From a virus, in the IMG/VR virus record IMGVR_UViG_3300044624_002933, positions 1-42,731 of that record: a stretch of DNA of 42,731 nt. One strand, written 5' to 3'. Position numbers and translations under genes: made by a program. This document shows positions 3,195-37,125 of the stretch, in pieces. Numbering within the stretch: the first letter of the stretch is position 1; every line of letters begins with the position of its first letter. The notes below the pieces were generated by a model. That model saw only the letters and a list, made by a program, of their open reading frames with translations. It searched no databases and was not told the DNA's origin.

Positions 3195-3542
3195 TTATTC
3201 TTTAACCTCGGTTTGGTTTATCTTTTCTATATTTTCTTCCTCTATCCTGCTAAGTTCATCTAGTTCAGCTCTTCTTTCATCCGGCATTCTTCGGGCAAAT
3301 ATTTGCATTTTCTTAGATCCATTAGCAGATCTAAAAGTTAGATTGCTCTCGCTATTAGCCTTAAGAATAAAAGATAATTCGCCTGGCTCTTCTTTACTAT
3401 TGCTCCAAGCAATAACAATAGGTTCCTCATCATCAAATTGGAAAACCCACTCGGCTCTATCGAATTCCTCTATACCAAGGATTTTCATTTCTTCCGATTC
3501 TGACATAGGTTGGTTGATTTCTTGCGATTCCATAGTATTCAT
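3195..3542 (-). CDS. Hypothetical acidic protein
   Basis: A protein of about 115 residues with unknown function, rich in Glu and Ser, with a C-terminal charged helix (ERRAELDELSRIEEENIEKI). I place the start at the ATG that overlaps the RNase HII stop codon (AAAATGAAT: ATG 3542-3540, TGA 3541-3539). This is the usual coupled junction in this window; an upstream in-frame ATG at 3560 would lie inside rnhB. The centre (VFQFDDEEPIVIAWSN) looks like a small beta sheet. There is no signal peptide, membrane segment or cysteine cluster. It is followed 5 bp later by the GMP-reductase-like gene. Confidence 0.5.
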   Translation of the reverse strand: MNTMESQEINQPMSESEEMKILGIEEFDRAEWVFQFDDEEPIVIAWSNSKEEPGELSFILKANSESNLTFRSANGSKKMQIFARRMPDERRAELDELSRIEEENIEKINQTEVKE

Positions 3543-4145
3543 TTTATAAAATTTAAACAAAAAGTTTTTCTGTGGTGCTTTGTTAATCCAGATCTTCTTA
3601 TCTCATTAATGTGGTCAGCAGTACCGTACCCAACATTGGTTTCCCATTTATATGCTGGATATTCAATTCCTATCTGTCTCATAAGCTTATCCCGGTGTAC
3701 CTTAGCCAGAATAGATGCTGCTGAAATTGAATGTATCTTGGAATCACCCTTTATGACACACTCGTAGGGAATTCCGTTATGTCCTGGGAATTTATCTCCG
3801 TCCACATATAGAAAATCGGGCTTTTTTGAGCAAGAATCTATGGCTCTTTTCATAGCCAAGAATGTTGCCTGAAGTATATTCATCTGATCAATCTCTTGAG
3901 GTGAACTAGCTCCTATTCCCCATGATATTGCATTCTCCTTTATGATTAGTTCTACTTCCTCTCTTTTCTTTTGACTTTTAATTAATTTGCTGTCTTTAAT
4001 TCTCGGATCGTAAAATCCATCGGGTAGTATCACAGCAGCAGCTACCACTGGACCAGAAAGACATCCTCGGCCTTCAGCCCACCTCATCAACGCCAGCAAT
4101 AAACTTTAGCTCGCGAAGAAGAGGTGGATTATTTTTTTCTATCAT
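3539..4145 (-). CDS. rnhB: Ribonuclease HII, interrupted by a 7-nt gap (frameshifted or bypassed)
   Basis: RNase HII cleaves RNA in RNA-DNA hybrids and single ribonucleotides in DNA. The gene starts at ATG 4145, inside the end of the upstream endonuclease gene, and encodes 23 residues ending IAGVDEVG. The next codon is TGA (4076-4074). Downstream, a different frame carries GRGCLSGPVVAAAVILP, then VDGDKFPGHN and IKGDSKIHSISAASILAK with the remaining catalytic Asp residues. Skipping seven bases (4076-4070, TGAAGGC), from one GGC codon to the next, gives the exact family motif VDEVGRGCLSGP. The resulting protein is 199 residues, close to E. coli RnhB. Without the skip, the downstream open frame (internal ATG) lacks the catalytic Asp-Glu. 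It could be a translational bypass, a +1 shift, a recent mutation or a sequence error. The family assignment is certain; expression is not. Confidence 0.85.
4070..4076 (-). other. 7-nt coding gap in rnhB flanked by matched GGC codons
   Basis: Read on the minus strand, the coding sequence runs GAG GTG GGC, then TGAAGGC, then CGA GGA TGT. The gap starts with an in-frame UGA immediately after a GGC glycine codon and ends with an identical GGC, after which the canonical frame resumes. Matched take-off and landing glycine codons with a stop directly after take-off are the defining arrangement of the T4 gene 60 bypass (GGA...GGA, stop UAG). A slippage-type duplication producing a null allele would look the same in DNA. 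Confidence 0.6.
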
Positions 4146-4800
4146 TATTTTTACTTTGGATTGATTTTCTTATTTTATCCTTTGTTTCCTCAGAATGTTT
4201 CATTCCATAGAATGGGTTTTTTTCTCCTTTTATTTTTTCGCTGTTTTTCAGAGAATCCGATAGATTTTTTATGTGTTCCTCGGTTTTTTTCTTTCCCTTC
4301 AGGCTTTCTGATATTTTTTTTCTCTGCTCGTCGGTAAAAGTCCTACCCTTAAGAGCTTTGCTCATTTTTTCTCTGTATTCCTCAGAAGAATGTAACTCCT
4401 TCTTTTTTTCCGATTTTAATTGTCCCTCAGATATCCTAGAAGAAACTTCTGGAGAAGACATAATTTCCTTAAATTTATCGGAATTGCTATTTTCTCTTAT
4501 CTTTTCTATAACATCAGGTGATTGTTTAAATCCTTTAGATCCCAGACCACCCCTTAGTATATTATAGCCTATCTTATTATCGGTTGAATTAAATAAAGAG
4601 ATCCAATAAATCTCCCTCTCGTTCAGTTGATCTATAGTTTTACATTCTTCCAGAATTTCCTTAACAAAGCTAGACTTTCCGTATTTTTTAATTGCTTCCT
4701 TAATTATTTTTCCTGAACCCATATAATTCGGATCGTTATTGGTGTCTTGCCCTATGTATATCTTCCCGTTTATCAAATTGGTAGTTTTGTAGATTATCAT
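4129..4800 (-). CDS. GIY-YIG homing endonuclease (Seg-like) with NUMOD3 repeats
   Basis: A 223-residue free-standing homing endonuclease. The N-terminal GIY-YIG nuclease domain (about residues 1-95) shows IYKTTNLINGKIYIGQ, then YMGSGK, a KYGKSSF helix and the catalytic-Glu segment NEREIYWI. The C-terminal half holds several NUMOD3-type DNA-binding motifs (SPEVSSRISEG, GRTFTDEQRKKISES, GMKHSEETKDKIRKS), rich in Lys. Such enzymes cut related genomes lacking the element and spread themselves and flanking markers during mixed infection. The gene has a GATATATA box 19 nt before its start, and its end overlaps the true start of rnhB. It therefore sits directly against a gene carrying a 7-nt interruption. 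No intron sequence surrounds it. Confidence 0.9.
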   Translation of the reverse strand: MIIYKTTNLINGKIYIGQDTNNDPNYMGSGKIIKEAIKKYGKSSFVKEILEECKTIDQLNEREIYWISLFNSTDNKIGYNILRGGLGSKGFKQSPDVIEKIRENSNSDKFKEIMSSPEVSSRISEGQLKSEKKKELHSSEEYREKMSKALKGRTFTDEQRKKISESLKGKKKTEEHIKNLSDSLKNSEKIKGEKNPFYGMKHSEETKDKIRKSIQSKNNDRKK

Positions 4801-4819
4801 AATTTAGATTTTTTTAAAT

Positions 4820-4827
4820 TATATATC
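4820..4827 (-). promoter_or_regulatory. Candidate phage promoter octamer GATATATA
   Basis: On the minus strand GATATATA lies 19 nt before the ATG of the GIY-YIG endonuclease, in the short gap after the metallophosphoesterase gene. It belongs to the recurring GATAWATA set described in the findings. Confidence 0.45.
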
Positions 4828-4856
4828 CAAATTAGCATGTCTACCTGGACCCTATA

Positions 4857-8436: not shown

Positions 8437-9213
8437 CTACTTATTACTTAATTTTAATAATCCCTTCTCGCTATTAAAGCAATGCAAAGATATTATGTGC
8501 ATAGAAAAATACCCAGGAACAACATCGTTCCATGTATCCGGATTTCTCTTTTTAAGCTCATCTAATATCCACATAAGTTTTCTTATCGCTAGATATATGT
8601 CATCTCTAAAGTGTCTTATATAATCACATGATCTAATAAAGTAAGCTATATGGAACCAATTTCCTCTCCGCATAAAATGATACCCTATAGTACACGGTAC
8701 TCTTTCTCCGTGGGTTACTCCGGTATCCTCAGGAAACCATATGGGCAAAAAAGCCTGTCTGGTAAATGGCTCCTTCTCTAATAAATCAACAACATCAGCA
8801 AGATCTCCGTAATCGAAACGTATTCCTGATAATTTGGTATTGGGTTCTTCTGATGCGTATTTAGGCCATATCCTTTCCGGATAGGTGTGGGAAAATCTAC
8901 TATTCCCACCAAACTTCTCGTTATTCTTTTGAGCAAATGGCCAGTTAACATGGGAAGGAGGTGGATTAAGGGGAAGACCCCCAACTCTTTCAAAGAAGTG
9001 CTCATCCGCCCAGTCAAGATTCGGTTTTACCTCATCAATAAGTTCTTCCAAAGAATGTGGGATAAACATTTGGAAAGAATGGTTCATAATCTCAAACATA
9101 TCGTCGGGTGCTTCTATACCCTGCCATTTTTCCGTTTTAACTACATACCCACAATCAGACAACCGCTCCTTAGTCCATTTTATAGCATCGGATGGTTTTT
9201 GGAAAGTTCTCAT
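8437..9213 (-). CDS. Thymidylate synthase family protein, predicted dCMP hydroxymethylase
   Basis: A 258-residue member of the thymidylate synthase/dCMP hydroxymethylase family. The nucleophile Cys174 sits in RVPCTIGYHF. Twenty residues on, as in E. coli ThyA and T4 gp42, is Arg194 of the phosphate-binding RSCD (Asp197), and SMHIISLHCF matches the SLHxY strand. The discriminating position, 11 residues after the Arg (Asn177 in ThyA, which reads dUMP), is Asp205, as in T4 dCMP hydroxymethylase. Family knowledge therefore predicts that it makes 5-hydroxymethyl-dCMP from dCMP and methylenetetrahydrofolate. The N-terminal 110 residues are diverged. Substrate preference is inferred from this one residue and not shown directly. 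Confidence 0.75.
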   Translation of the reverse strand: MRTFQKPSDAIKWTKERLSDCGYVVKTEKWQGIEAPDDMFEIMNHSFQMFIPHSLEELIDEVKPNLDWADEHFFERVGGLPLNPPPSHVNWPFAQKNNEKFGGNSRFSHTYPERIWPKYASEEPNTKLSGIRFDYGDLADVVDLLEKEPFTRQAFLPIWFPEDTGVTHGERVPCTIGYHFMRRGNWFHIAYFIRSCDYIRHFRDDIYLAIRKLMWILDELKKRNPDTWNDVVPGYFSMHIISLHCFNSEKGLLKLSNK

Positions 9214-9260
9214 TTAAAATTTATTGTTTTATTTTTCTATGAACAAATATCAATAAGATT

Positions 9261-9953
9261 TCAGTCTAGGTCTGAAAAAATATAGGATTTTTTTTCCTCG
9301 GTATCAAATATGATGGGATAGTTGGCTGGATAATAGGAAAGATTCAGAAAAGAGGCGTTAATATAGGTAACCCCATCTATGATATCTGTTCCAAATGATT
9401 CGTGGATGTGACCGAAGGAATGTGCTATAAGATTCTTTAGATCCCCAATCTTTCTGGAAAGCTCTGGACAACCAACATTTTTGTGTCCATTGAAAGTGTA
9501 ATCAAGAATATCTTTTGGAGGACCGTGTGTAATGAGTATATTTATATCCGAAGGTATTAGATCCCAGTGATCAACAATTTCGCCTCTCCTGTTAAAAGCC
9601 CAGTCATAGAACCAGGGAGTTACTGGACTTCCCCAAAATTTAATACCATCTATCTCTACACCAGAATCATTCAGATATATTATCGTCTTTCCGTCTAGTA
9701 TTTCGTTACATCTTTCAGGATTAGTTTCGAAAAGAAAATCATGATTTCCTGCTACCAGTATCTTTTTTTTAAACCCTAAACTATCGTACCAGGAAATAAA
9801 ATCCACTACCTCATAATCTCTGCCTCTATTTGAAATATCCCCACAGTGGATCAAAACCGAATCAGGATATTTGCCAAGAATTTTCTCTAGGAATAGGTTT
9901 AATTTAAGATTCTCGTGCTGGCCATGAGTATCTGATATAAAGCACAGTATCAT
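9261..9953 (-). CDS. Calcineurin-like metallophosphoesterase
   Basis: A 230-residue, single-domain metallophosphoesterase. Motifs in order are CFISDTHGQH (Asp and His, metal 1), IHCGDISNRG (bridging Asp), VAGNHDF (Asn-His), LITHGPP and SFGHIHES (final His pair). All metal ligands are present, so it should be active. Relatives include small phosphodiesterases of the YfcE/MPPED type that act on cyclic nucleotides, nucleotides or phosphoproteins; the substrate cannot be read from the sequence. It overlaps no neighbour and follows mgsA by 1 bp. Confidence 0.85.
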   Translation of the reverse strand: MILCFISDTHGQHENLKLNLFLEKILGKYPDSVLIHCGDISNRGRDYEVVDFISWYDSLGFKKKILVAGNHDFLFETNPERCNEILDGKTIIYLNDSGVEIDGIKFWGSPVTPWFYDWAFNRRGEIVDHWDLIPSDINILITHGPPKDILDYTFNGHKNVGCPELSRKIGDLKNLIAHSFGHIHESFGTDIIDGVTYINASFLNLSYYPANYPIIFDTEEKKSYIFSDLD

Positions 9954-12973: not shown

Positions 12974-12980
12974 AATTTAG

Positions 12981-13469
12981 TGGACCCGGAGGGGGTCGAA
13001 CCCTCGTCCAGATCGAATGTCCATTGGACTCATTCACAGGCTTAGTTGATTGTTTGACATCAACAAACTTTGGGTGCGTTTCTTTTTTCTTTCAGACTTA
13101 ACGCTCAGTCTGGTCTACTCCCAGGTATTAGCCAAGTTTCACTGACATTGATAGTGACGATCTAAATGGGTATTGGACTAATCCTCAAGGTTCCACTCAA
13201 TGTCAAATAGGCAATACTACGAACCTTTTTTCTTGCCAGCTTGCAACTTTCTTTTATGATTGGCAGTTGCCGCCAATTGGTTAGGCTGCAACAGCTAGCT
13301 CAACCTCTTCAGTTACTACCGAACGAGTAAGTGAAGTTGGGATACTCATGATATCCTCAGAATTGTAAACGTTTGCGTTTATTGTTTGATAGGTAATTAA
13401 AGTCTTTCCAATCTAAGACTGCCTGCATCTCAAAGAACTACCTCCGCCTGTCAAATCCAAAGCGGGCCC
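12981..13469 (-). ncRNA. ssrA: Transfer-messenger RNA (tmRNA)
   Basis: A 489-nt one-piece tmRNA that rescues stalled ribosomes and tags the unfinished protein. The 5' end GGGCCCG pairs with the 3' end CGGGUCC in a 7-bp acceptor stem with an A discriminator; CCA is not encoded. The 5' part has the conserved GGAUUUGACAGG. The 3' part has GGACGAGGGUUCGACCCCCUC, a 5-bp T stem with UUCGACC loop. The tag frame opens at the conserved cGCAAAC (resume codon GCA at 13376) and runs to UAA at 13281. The 5' end is 3 nt after the stop of the 59-residue gene, so it is probably cut from an operon transcript. The intervening pseudoknot region was not folded in detail. Confidence 0.95.
13281..13376 (-). other. 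tmRNA tag reading frame (31 residues)
   Basis: The frame from the resume codon GCA to UAA encodes 31 residues, beginning ANVYNSEDIM and ending TEEVELAVAA. The C-terminal AVAA keeps the small hydrophobic end recognised by ClpXP-type proteases. The length is well above the 8-15 residues of common bacterial tags. The start is set by the GCAAAC context, which is conserved at tmRNA resume sites. Confidence 0.85.
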
Positions 13470-20045: not shown

Positions 20046-21209
20046 TTAAAAAAGTGCGTTAATCATAAACAAGTTAGGACTTATTTTATTGTACCCCATA
20101 ACTTCAATAAACCTATTTATAGGATCCAAAATAGTCTTAGTAAACTGCTCATCATAATCTATAGGCGGAGCAAATTCATAGGGAAATGTTCCCTGAGGAT
20201 ATGCAAAGACATTATTGTCAGCTATAGATTTTGTTTTAACAAAGTAATAGTTAACCTTCTCAGCGCTTCTTATTAGGGAATATTTACTCTTATATTTAGA
20301 CGAATTTAGAAGGTAGTTGTGATAACCAGAAGCTCTAACGTGGATTGGACAAGCCTTTGCCACTTCGAAAGCGGTGGTATCATTCAGAATGAATTTCTCG
20401 TAATTGTTAATATTTACGGATGCTGATATGTTTTTAGGTTCCTGGACTTTGAATTCCTTCTTTATATCCTTAAGTTCCTTAACAAAGTCCCTGATATTAA
20501 AATTTCTACCTTTTGAGAAAATGAATTTTGTTAGATAAACAAGCTTCTCTCTTACAAATGGAGGTGTACCTCCTTTAATCATCTCAACTCCAGTAAACTT
20601 CAACTGAGATAGAGGATCTGTGTGGATACCTGAATCATAAGCCAGGTTAGCAACATATTTCTTCTTACCTAAGAATATGGCGTTAAAAGAAAGTGTCTCT
20701 AACTCAAAGTCCTGGTAATTGTCTGTATTCCATTTTTTGGAGTAGATATCAAAACACTTCTTCAGATAATCATTCAGTCTATATTCATTTATCTTAAGAA
20801 TTAAATCCTTTGGGTCTCCTTTATAGTCACATGAATCTACCACCTCCTGAAACGTCACGTAATTAGAATCAGTATCACCATAAACAACCAGGGGTCTAGA
20901 AACCTTCTTCACGGCGGTAAGCCCTAATTTTTCATGGAGCTCCTTATCTAGGTGCCAGTGCTCATGGAAGTATTTATGGAGAATCTTCTCCGAATACTTT
21001 ATTAGGTCCTGTCCCTGTAGGGTTACAGATTCAGCAACATCAGGATTGAAACACACAAACCAGTTATTACCAATCGCTCCATAGATGGAGTTCATTGTTA
21101 ATTTAATAGCCTGCTCCTCGTTCTTAAGTTCGTTCTTAACTTCAGTAAGCCTCTCTATTTTTTGTTTTATTTCTAGGATTTCTTCCTGTGTCATATTTTT
21201 ATTTTTCAA
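20046..21209 (-). CDS. DNA polymerase family B, C-terminal fragment (fingers, palm, thumb)
   Basis: A 387-residue fragment. It starts with a helix (TQEEILEIKQKIERLTEVKNELKN) running directly into motif B, NEEQAIKLTMNSIYGAIGN (Lys36, Tyr43), the nucleotide-binding finger helix. Motif C VYGDTDSNYV supplies two catalytic aspartates (Asp112, Asp114). KKKYVANLAYDSG matches the KKRY motif of phage polymerases, followed by GVEMIKGGTPPFVREKL and a thumb-like end. The third catalytic Asp (motif A) and the exonuclease are in the separate gene at 35719-37125. Both pieces are needed for one active enzyme. The ATG overlaps the sliding-clamp gene by 11 bp, so polymerase tail and clamp are co-translated. 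No intein residues are present. Confidence 0.9.
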   Translation of the reverse strand: MKNKNMTQEEILEIKQKIERLTEVKNELKNEEQAIKLTMNSIYGAIGNNWFVCFNPDVAESVTLQGQDLIKYSEKILHKYFHEHWHLDKELHEKLGLTAVKKVSRPLVVYGDTDSNYVTFQEVVDSCDYKGDPKDLILKINEYRLNDYLKKCFDIYSKKWNTDNYQDFELETLSFNAIFLGKKKYVANLAYDSGIHTDPLSQLKFTGVEMIKGGTPPFVREKLVYLTKFIFSKGRNFNIRDFVKELKDIKKEFKVQEPKNISASVNINNYEKFILNDTTAFEVAKACPIHVRASGYHNYLLNSSKYKSKYSLIRSAEKVNYYFVKTKSIADNNVFAYPQGTFPYEFAPPIDYDEQFTKTILDPINRFIEVMGYNKISPNLFMINALF

Positions 21210-35718: not shown

Positions 35719-37125
35719 TTAATTTTTTTCTTTTTCTAATAACTTTTCTAGCTTGTCAATTTCGATCTGTAGCTCTAGCATTCGGTCTTTAGTTTTCCTC
35801 CTTCTGGAATAAAGATCTTTAATGATTGTTCTTAATATCGGGTTCTCGTCTTCACCGCCAAAATATGCTCCAGATGCTGTTTTAGACCAGGTTTCTTTTG
35901 GATTTGCTGGATTCTTTCCCTTGTAAACTTCTGGAGAGATTCCCCATTGAACCATGGTGTTTGGATAAAGAGAAGCAAAGTCATAACAAGCTATCCATTC
36001 ATGTAATCCTTTGGTTGGTTCCTTTACGTAACCTCCCGCAAATTTAACGTGTACTTCTTCCTTCCTTTCGTCGGTAAAAACTTGCTTCCGATCCAAGAAT
36101 TTTCTAAGCATCATAATTTCGGTAGACCATACAGGGGAAAGAGCACGGTTTATTTCCACTCCCGAGATCATTGCGATCTTAAAGAAAGTTTGCATGGTTT
36201 TAAGCTTGGTGTCAATATAATGAACCAACGCACAGTCAACTGCGTTATAATAAATAAAGTCCTCAAAATTCGATTGGTATAGATCTCTAAGAGTTCCATT
36301 GTATTCTATCTTTTTGAATCCAACAGCCTTATCGGCAACATAATCTAATCTATTACTTTCCTTAATCTTAATAACTCTGTCCCATTTTTTATAGATCTCA
36401 AGGTAATCGACCATGAGTAAGTGCATAGGTAACTGTGCTTTCCCTATCAGATAATTTCCAGGGGAAATCATCTTAGGGTCAACTCCTATTCTTTTAGCTC
36501 TATTTAATAAATAAGGCCAGTCATACCCTAACCAGTTCCAACCGGTTATTACTGGCATACGAGGACCAAGCTCTCTAAAAAATGTGTAGAGCATATCATA
36601 CTCTGATGGAAACTGTTTGTATTTAAACGACCATTCGTCACCGGTTCTTTCAAAGTATGAATTTATCTTCTTGTAGATACTAGCTTGCTGTTCTGGTGTT
36701 AGCGGATCAAGACCAAGAACTATTATCTTATTCTTGTCTGTAGCAATCCCTATAGAAAGAACCCGATTTCTTGCATTCTCTGTATCTAAAGCTGCTGCCA
36801 TATCCTCCGTTATCTCAACCTCGATATCGACAAAGTATTTTCTAGGGGTCTGGTACTCCCAAAGGGGTTTGGTCAATTCTTCGGGAGAATCTATAAGTAT
36901 CTGAGCCATTCTATACTTATTGTATTTCTCGGTCTTCGTTTTCTTTACCGCCTCTCCTGTCCAATTCGTCCATTCTTTGTCCCTTTTTGGATCATTAGGA
37001 CTGCACTTCTCCCAAATAAATCTGTCCTCCTCCTTAATGGGAACTTCTAAAAAAGCCAATTCTCCCTCTTCGTTAAAGTGGGATACTTTTAGATAACTTC
37101 CCTTATTTTCTATGTCTATGATCAT
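35719..37125 (-). CDS. DNA polymerase family B, N-terminal fragment (exonuclease to motif A)
   Basis: A 468-residue fragment. Residues 90-310 form the 3'-5' proofreading exonuclease: KYFVDIEVE (Asp100, Glu102), TGWNWLGYDWPYLL (Asp202) and YYNAVDCALV (Asp297). The palm begins about 335, with motif A ACYDFASLYPNT (Asp382). The chain ends in a helical segment (SRRRKTKDRMLELQIEIDKLEKLLEKEKN), which in intact phage polymerases is the first finger helix. Motifs B and C are missing here and lie in the gene at 20046-21209. The split falls at the finger tip and both ends are coiled-coil-like, so the halves probably reassemble without splicing. No intein motifs occur at the junction. Confidence 0.9.
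   Translation of the reverse strand: MIIDIENKGSYLKVSHFNEEGELAFLEVPIKEEDRFIWEKCSPNDPKRDKEWTNWTGEAVKKTKTEKYNKYRMAQILIDSPEELTKPLWEYQTPRKYFVDIEVEITEDMAAALDTENARNRVLSIGIATDKNKIIVLGLDPLTPEQQASIYKKINSYFERTGDEWSFKYKQFPSEYDMLYTFFRELGPRMPVITGWNWLGYDWPYLLNRAKRIGVDPKMISPGNYLIGKAQLPMHLLMVDYLEIYKKWDRVIKIKESNRLDYVADKAVGFKKIEYNGTLRDLYQSNFEDFIYYNAVDCALVHYIDTKLKTMQTFFKIAMISGVEINRALSPVWSTEIMMLRKFLDRKQVFTDERKEEVHVKFAGGYVKEPTKGLHEWIACYDFASLYPNTMVQWGISPEVYKGKNPANPKETWSKTASGAYFGGEDENPILRTIIKDLYSRRRKTKDRMLELQIEIDKLEKLLEKEKN

Follow-up and report, generated by a model that had tools for sequence, protein, structure and literature searches.

The question raised by this locus is how a phage could keep a usable RNase HII when the gene for it, rnhB, is broken by a stop codon inside the catalytic motif of the enzyme. 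The window, which is the whole 42,731-nt stretch of viral DNA analysed (IMG/VR record IMGVR_UViG_3300044624_002933, positions 1 to 42,731), carries rnhB on its minus strand in two pieces. The preliminary description reported a UGA after IAGVDEVG, a 7-nt gap, resumption at GRGCLSGP and a protein of 199 residues, and all of these coordinates are confirmed (Table 1). It thus caught the interruption itself, and it missed the upstream hairpin, the conservation, the 6-nt gaps and the other stop codons that are described below. The downstream frame opens GRGCLSGPVVAAAV at the second GGC and gives 177 residues, GRGCLSGP...NFIK, after that codon, and the 607 nt minus 7 encode 199 amino acids. The DExGRG motif of RNase HII is formed in the window only when the gap is skipped, and the later motifs VDGD/IDGD and KGDS are kept in the 16 proteins compared. 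The open reading frame of a GIY-YIG gene (4800-4129) overlaps the rnhB start by 17 nt. The cassette boundaries given for the window are those of the sister pair L045/L079, carried over by inference.

Table 1. Positions of the features at the interrupted rnhB locus of the window.
Feature	Position	Strand	Remark
rnhB 5' coding part with the catalytic Asp-Glu, MIEKNNPPLLRELKFIAGVDEVG	4077..4145	minus	ATG at 4145-4143; 23 codons to GGC
Candidate take-off codon GGC (Gly)	4077..4079	minus	GGC in 10/10 gap alleles
UGA stop immediately 3' of the take-off GGC	4074..4076	minus	UAA and UAG in one relative each
7-nt segment TGAAGGC, which a bypass would skip	4070..4076	minus	last three bases are the landing codon
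Proposed landing codon, second GGC	4072-4070	minus	end of the 7-nt gap
Main part of rnhB, beginning at the landing codon, GRGCLSGP...	3542..4072	minus	stop at 3541-3539; Pfam RNase_HII, 108 bits
GIY-YIG/NUMOD3 homing-endonuclease-like gene, 223 aa	4132..4800	minus	stop at 4131-4129; Pfam NUMOD3 and GIY-YIG
Predicted RNA hairpin inside the rnhB coding sequence	4078..4128	minus	folding; model R1
Lower stem of the hairpin, UCCACCUC paired with GAGGUGGG	4128-4121 with 4085-4078	minus	3' arm ends on the GG of the take-off GGC
Putative mobile cassette	4073..4856	minus	from just past the stop of the preceding gene (ends 4857) to the junction before the landing codon

The same arrangement is found in relatives of the window. 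A search of viral_contigs with the downstream 178 residues gave 23 loci, 8 with a stop directly after DEVG and 15 with an uninterrupted DEVGRG. A profile search with the downstream protein alone gave 30 loci (13 with the stop and 17 without), and a DNA pattern search, in which 12 of 25 matches were judged from their translations to be chance and discarded, added one more gap contig, L048. The gap set comprises 14 contigs with 14 metagenome numbers plus the window and is counted as 10 alleles, leaving out as near-copies L001 and L002 (of the window), L041 and L048 (of L040), and L023 (of L017, with one base different in the part compared). The near-copies L006 and L010-L012 were left out of the gapless alleles, and L078 (46% identical) was used only in the 30-locus stop count, the endonuclease survey and the shuffle folding.

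The stop is UGA in eight gap alleles, UAA in L019 and UAG in L071. The gap is 7 nt long in 8/10 alleles and 6 nt in L005 and L019, and the reading frame is therefore unchanged in the latter two. All ten alleles have the stop (TGA, TAA or TAG) directly after the take-off GGC, and the codons before the stop are GAG GTG GGC in all ten, which are not ten independent observations because the gap alleles share descent. The same positions are mixed in the 12 gapless alleles (GAA/GAG, GTA/GTT/GTG and GGA/GGC/GGT), and GGC makes up 16 of the 435 glycine codons in 17 open reading frames of the window. The landing codon is GGC, identical to the take-off codon, in 6/10 gap alleles, GGA in three and GGT in one. 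A hop from GGC to the next GGN restores the exact DEVGRG in every gap allele, whichever the gap length or the stop. The 141 nt around the site had no blastn match in 50,697 phage records, and all 19 rnhB matches in named phages are less than 50% identical, the one inspected being uninterrupted. An RNase HII homologue of a huge phage (L178, LR756504.1, around 1480-1515) reads TDESGVGCLAGP, with Val for the Arg of GRG and no gap.

A long hairpin, UCCRCCUC...GAGGUGGG, is predicted before the stop, with a 3' arm that reaches as far as the first two bases of the take-off GGC. With dinucleotide shuffles as the null, its mean z is -6.4 in the 10 gap alleles, which hold nine distinct hairpin sequences, versus +0.8 in 13 gapless loci. 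Under a null of synonymous recoding, 0 of 1000 recodings are as stable for each of the 10 gap alleles (mean z -6.3), and the 12 gapless alleles have a mean z of +1.1; the stretches folded were up to 48 nt in gapless and 57 nt in gap alleles. Selection therefore seems to act on the RNA and not on the peptide alone. The covariation is weak, with two pairs changed on both sides and 51 of 500 shuffles reaching the score. The covariance model R1 finds one place in each of the 14/14 gap contigs and in 0/12 gapless ones; it also gives a weaker mirror match on the opposite strand, and large records were scored on the best 150 first-look candidates. The 19-residue upstream peptide is conserved in the gap alleles as well, and any part it may play as a nascent-peptide signal is inseparable from enzyme function.

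The hairpin was also compared with other stops. In the window and one 348-kb relative, 29 of 11,487 stops adjoin a hairpin with an energy of -20 kcal/mol or lower. First and third place among these go to the two rnhB sites, which are also the only ones flanked by Gly codons, one before the stop and a second 0-1 nt behind it. The hairpin-stop pattern, which finds only copies sharing the same lower stem, matches 14 contigs in viral_contigs, all of them rnhB loci. Its single match in genome_contigs, in a Nitriliruptoraceae MAG, was rejected, as it has TGG for the stop and no RNase HII motif in three frames. A scan for hairpin, stop and resumption in 79 GIY-YIG loci (from the best 80 of 414; coding strand, -900 to +1700 of the gene) gave eight matches, namely three known cassettes and five others (L102 twice, L128, L157 and L158) with no Gly codon before the stop. 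A known RNA element or intron at the site was discarded as well: at gathering thresholds, Rfam gives tmRNA only among five sources, in the window and L045, and nothing in L003, L005 and L019.

Both halves of rnhB are under purifying selection, as judged from their substitutions. The downstream frame has no stop in 10/10 gap alleles, including the five without an intact endonuclease, and the median dN/dS is 0.078 among gap alleles (21 finite of 45 pairs, 24 giving no finite ratio) and 0.074 among gapless alleles (25 finite of 66 pairs, 41 giving none). Over the last 19 codons of 10 alleles, the upstream part has a pN/pS of 0.137 in its own frame, whereas the two other frames give 3.04 and 1.06. 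It occurs in this form in gap alleles only, and for a peptide that ends in IAGVDEVG the one evident function is to form the catalytic start of RNase HII. PF01351 is present once per record in 24/24 records searched, including gap genomes of 289, 319 and 348 kb, and no second rnhB was found in these 24 records, which may be incomplete. Between L045 and L079, the second half of the gene differs by 0 synonymous and 3 non-synonymous changes. Some gains of the gap are recent, and intact downstream parts alone therefore prove little.

The 223-aa product of the upstream gene in the window matches NUMOD3 at 56.6 bits, above the cut-off, and GIY-YIG at 21.6 bits (E 2.7e-4), 1 bit under the Pfam cut-off of 22.6. 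The five aligned copies of the endonuclease (alignment A3) are conserved. It is intact beside rnhB in five gap alleles (the window with its copies L001 and L002, L003, L005, L019 and L045), a fragment in three (L043, L071 and L020) and absent in two (L040 and L017). The gap and the hairpin persist in all gap alleles, including those with a fragmentary or absent endonuclease. No endonuclease match was found in 15/15 gapless loci or in the four gapless loci surveyed further. In L017, a 61-aa membrane-protein-like open reading frame (4649-4831) stands in the place of the endonuclease, perhaps as a replacement after loss. Distant GIY-YIG genes, about 29% identical, lie elsewhere in gap-bearing phages, at 3724-4296 in L043 (flipped), 1778-2368 in L041 (flipped) and 4572-5162 in L048, and several such endonucleases therefore circulate.

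The sister pair L045 and L079 has both states of the locus. L045, with gap and endonuclease, and L079, with neither, are 99.0% identical over the 2959 nt before the locus and 99.1% over the 2014 nt after it. In between, L045 has a block of 774 nt, comprising the GIY-YIG gene, a foreign rnhB 5' end and the stop, in place of 40 nt. The block extends approximately from the stop of the preceding gene to the junction before GGN. In a tree of 22 alleles, built from 468 nt downstream of the gap, alleles with and without the gap are intermixed. The gap trait requires 9 changes, of which well supported branches impose at least 6, and clusters no more than with shuffled labels; the AU test rejects a single gap clade (p 3.5e-5). 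The gap is regarded as derived because gapless 5' ends agree by eye within their clades, and on the tree gain and loss are indistinguishable. Synonymous differences between gap alleles are 0.336 in the upstream part versus 0.742 in the downstream part, and the lower upstream value is expected if the upstream part travels. From these comparisons, it appears that a mobile gene for a DNA-cutting enzyme is spreading in a group of large phages along with a stop-bearing 5' piece of rnhB.

The locus is thus quite probably a homing-endonuclease cassette that carries a minimal bypass signal, with tRNA-Gly hopping from GGC to GGN. A minimal bypass element tied to the GIY-YIG gene, which possibly protects the site, was the reading put forward in the preliminary description, and the comparison of relatives fits it. 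Gapless relatives, which had been expected to speak against a bypass, were indeed found, but they represent the locus without the mobile cassette. The free-standing GIY-YIG homing endonuclease and the recoded rnhB 5' end would move as one unit, a cassette of about 0.8 kb. The presumed cutting target of the endonuclease is the near-invariant DEVGRG stretch in rnhB genes that lack the cassette. Repair from the cassette allele would then swap the resident 5' end and leave 6-7 extra nt with a stop, and these would destroy the cutting site. It is proposed that a recoding signal carried within the cassette keeps rnhB usable. A ribosome pausing at GGC followed by the stop would lose codon-anticodon pairing, and the hairpin abutting the take-off codon would refold behind the ribosome and pull the mRNA onward. 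The peptidyl-tRNA-Gly would re-pair with the next GGN after skipping 6 or 7 nt, and translation would resume with the exact DEVGRG, yielding a product that includes a peptide across VDEVGRGCLSGP.

The GAGGUGG arm lies directly before the take-off codon and about 7 nt before the landing codon, and it could therefore be both a motor and an SD-like element. The signal may well be compact and self-sufficient: a refolding coding hairpin would drive a natural stop hop of 6-7 nt with any stop and frame, and its 5' arm CCRCCUC would be a built-in substitute for the anti-SD in hosts that use the anti-SD little. The gene preceding the cassette is nearest to those of Maribacter and Flavobacterium phages (44% and 42%). 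The DNA polymerase is nearest to that of uncultured huge phages (37%), with Prevotella Lak phages lower among the matches (30%). Prevotella is a genus of Bacteroidota. A counterpoint to the hop is that the take-off and landing codons differ in 4/10 alleles. A GCC anticodon should not read GGA, and strict codon matching as in gene 60 would disallow a GGA landing. Minimal pairing can reportedly suffice, going by the title of Herr et al. 2004. No tRNA-Gly was recognised among the seven tRNAs, one with an undetermined anticodon, of the one phage genome examined.

Several explanations dispense with the hop. It is improbable that a +1 frameshift at GGC-stop serves the 7-nt alleles and readthrough the 6-nt alleles, giving DEVG-x-GRG with two extra residues. 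The sequences do imply an equal number of added residues in both cases, GAGGUGG could also pair with the anti-SD, and prfB illustrates how common +1 shifting is at a UGA with an SD-like element nearby. The prfB frameshift site is described in 523 of 726 Bacteroidia genomes, and F. johnsoniae, a member of this class that rarely uses SD, retains it (PMC8710568), with a frameshifting efficiency reported as low (PMC12421855). Against this, one cassette would need two mechanisms, each fitting only a subset of the alleles; a slip of GGC to GCU is a bad pairing; and extra residues in the catalytic loop are absent in 17 uninterrupted relatives and in two PDB alignments viewed. A split enzyme, in which termination and re-initiation give two polypeptides that assemble, is very unlikely. 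Internal initiation is possible in the window and four other alleles, since the second frame has an ATG just before the gap in the window, L003 and L071, a GTG and a TTG there in L040, and a TTG in L043. It was rejected because the start codon is absent in 5/10 alleles: L005, L019, L045, L020 and L017 have no ATG, GTG or TTG between the last stop and GRG, and their first downstream start lies 12 to 73 residues in. Moreover, a 23-residue fragment that supplies the catalytic Asp-Glu would be unusual.

It is hardly credible that the cassette is selfish and simply inactivates an rnhB that the phage can spare, having been gained too recently for decay to show. Phages can live without RNase HII, and at least one swap is recent, as the 99% identity of L045 and L079 indicates. 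The stop, the hairpin and the upstream frame were nevertheless kept while the cassette copies diverged (0.336 synonymous and 0.046 non-synonymous differences per site), and the downstream frame is unbroken in all ten alleles with or without an intact endonuclease. The decaying remnant that had been considered earlier finds no support. A single 7-nt interruption could be an error of sequencing or assembly or a private mutation, and a plain frameshift or error had initially been regarded as a strong alternative. The chance of this is practically nil because 14 further contigs with 14 metagenome numbers carry the same arrangement, with differing stops and gap lengths.

The cassette with a stop-hop signal, as preferred here, resembles the T4 gene 60/MobA cassette and the synthetic stop hops, but differs in the class of endonuclease and in the gene, and its gap is far smaller. 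MobA and the gene 60 gap reportedly form a mobile cassette, according to the title of Bonocora et al. 2011. Set beside three accounts of gene 60, both systems have a homing endonuclease gene just upstream, a gap in the neighbour gene that is untranslated in gene 60 and presumably so in rnhB, a Gly take-off codon followed directly by a stop, a Gly landing codon and a 5' stem-loop in the coding sequence (both predicted in rnhB), and some relatives without the endonuclease insertion and the gap (PMC5009743, PMC3014915, PMC11194080). In contrast to the 50 nt of gene 60, the rnhB gap of 6-7 nt has no room for structure inside. The rnhB cassette pairs a GIY-YIG endonuclease with rnhB, whereas the MobA system, likened by description, pairs an HNH endonuclease with a topoisomerase. 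Unlike gene 60, rnhB has a hairpin arm that abuts the take-off codon, all three stops and a landing codon that is not always identical, and it occurs in many lineages, in sister pairs with and without the cassette and in copies without the endonuclease. In gene 60, the stem-loop upstream of take-off is proposed to be part-paired at the mRNA exit and to pull the mRNA on completed pairing, with an SD-like sequence 6 nt upstream of the landing codon (PMC5009743; also PMC11194080). The bypass of gene 60 reportedly 'appears to be unique' (PMC3014915).

The stop hops of Weiss et al. 1987 are constructs with matched codons around a stop, in which 9 nt give one amino acid (PMC5009743). The rnhB alleles are natural, and L019, with GGC TAA GGC, has precisely that form. 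No occurrences of in-frame stop hopping in nature were known according to the 2016 review (PMC5009743). As that review describes them, a bypass with a reported 29-nt hop was proposed for an adhesin gene of the bacterium Prevotella loescheii and was dropped, partly since it was hard to get working in E. coli, and the terminase gene of Streptomyces phage Hau3 is a likely bypass in a phage; its account of both cases, unlike rnhB, describes no endonuclease tie (PMC5009743). The byp elements of Magnusiomyces capitatus mitochondria are also short bypassed inserts in coding genes with landing codons that are not always matched. They are mitochondrial and occupy 81 sites (PMC5009743), whereas the rnhB gap is at one site in phages and comes with an endonuclease gene. 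The programmed +1 frameshift of prfB (RF2) shares the stop right after the shift codon and a GAGG-like element upstream; in rnhB, unlike prfB, the stop identity varies, the gap is 6-7 nt and the hairpin is conserved. Judged by titles and abstracts, a search of open-licence literature brought up no report of bypass in rnhB or of a stop hop in nature.

Among phages and bacteria, T4 gene 60 is essentially the only well-proven case of programmed bypass (PMC3014915), with Hau3 and P. loescheii described as candidates (PMC5009743). If true, the rnhB system would be the first stop hop in nature, and also the first case of a bypass cassette of which many alleles circulate. With ten natural alleles, three different stops, gaps of two lengths and matching empty sites, the minimal needs of hopping could be tested. 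The system would also support the idea that homing endonucleases drive recoding evolution by inserting into codons too conserved to change.

Two further features of these genomes were observed. A phage tmRNA is encoded at 12978-13469 of the window on the minus strand (Rfam RF00023, 85.5 bits; ARAGORN tag EEVELAVAA); L045 has a tmRNA as well (8906-9379), and so does the 348-kb relative (tag EVEYAYAA). The family-B DNA polymerase of the window is apparently split between two open reading frames on the minus strand, 35722-37125 and 20049-21209, which are about 14.5 kb apart; by Pfam ranges, the exonuclease and the first part of the polymerase domain lie in one and the rest in the other.
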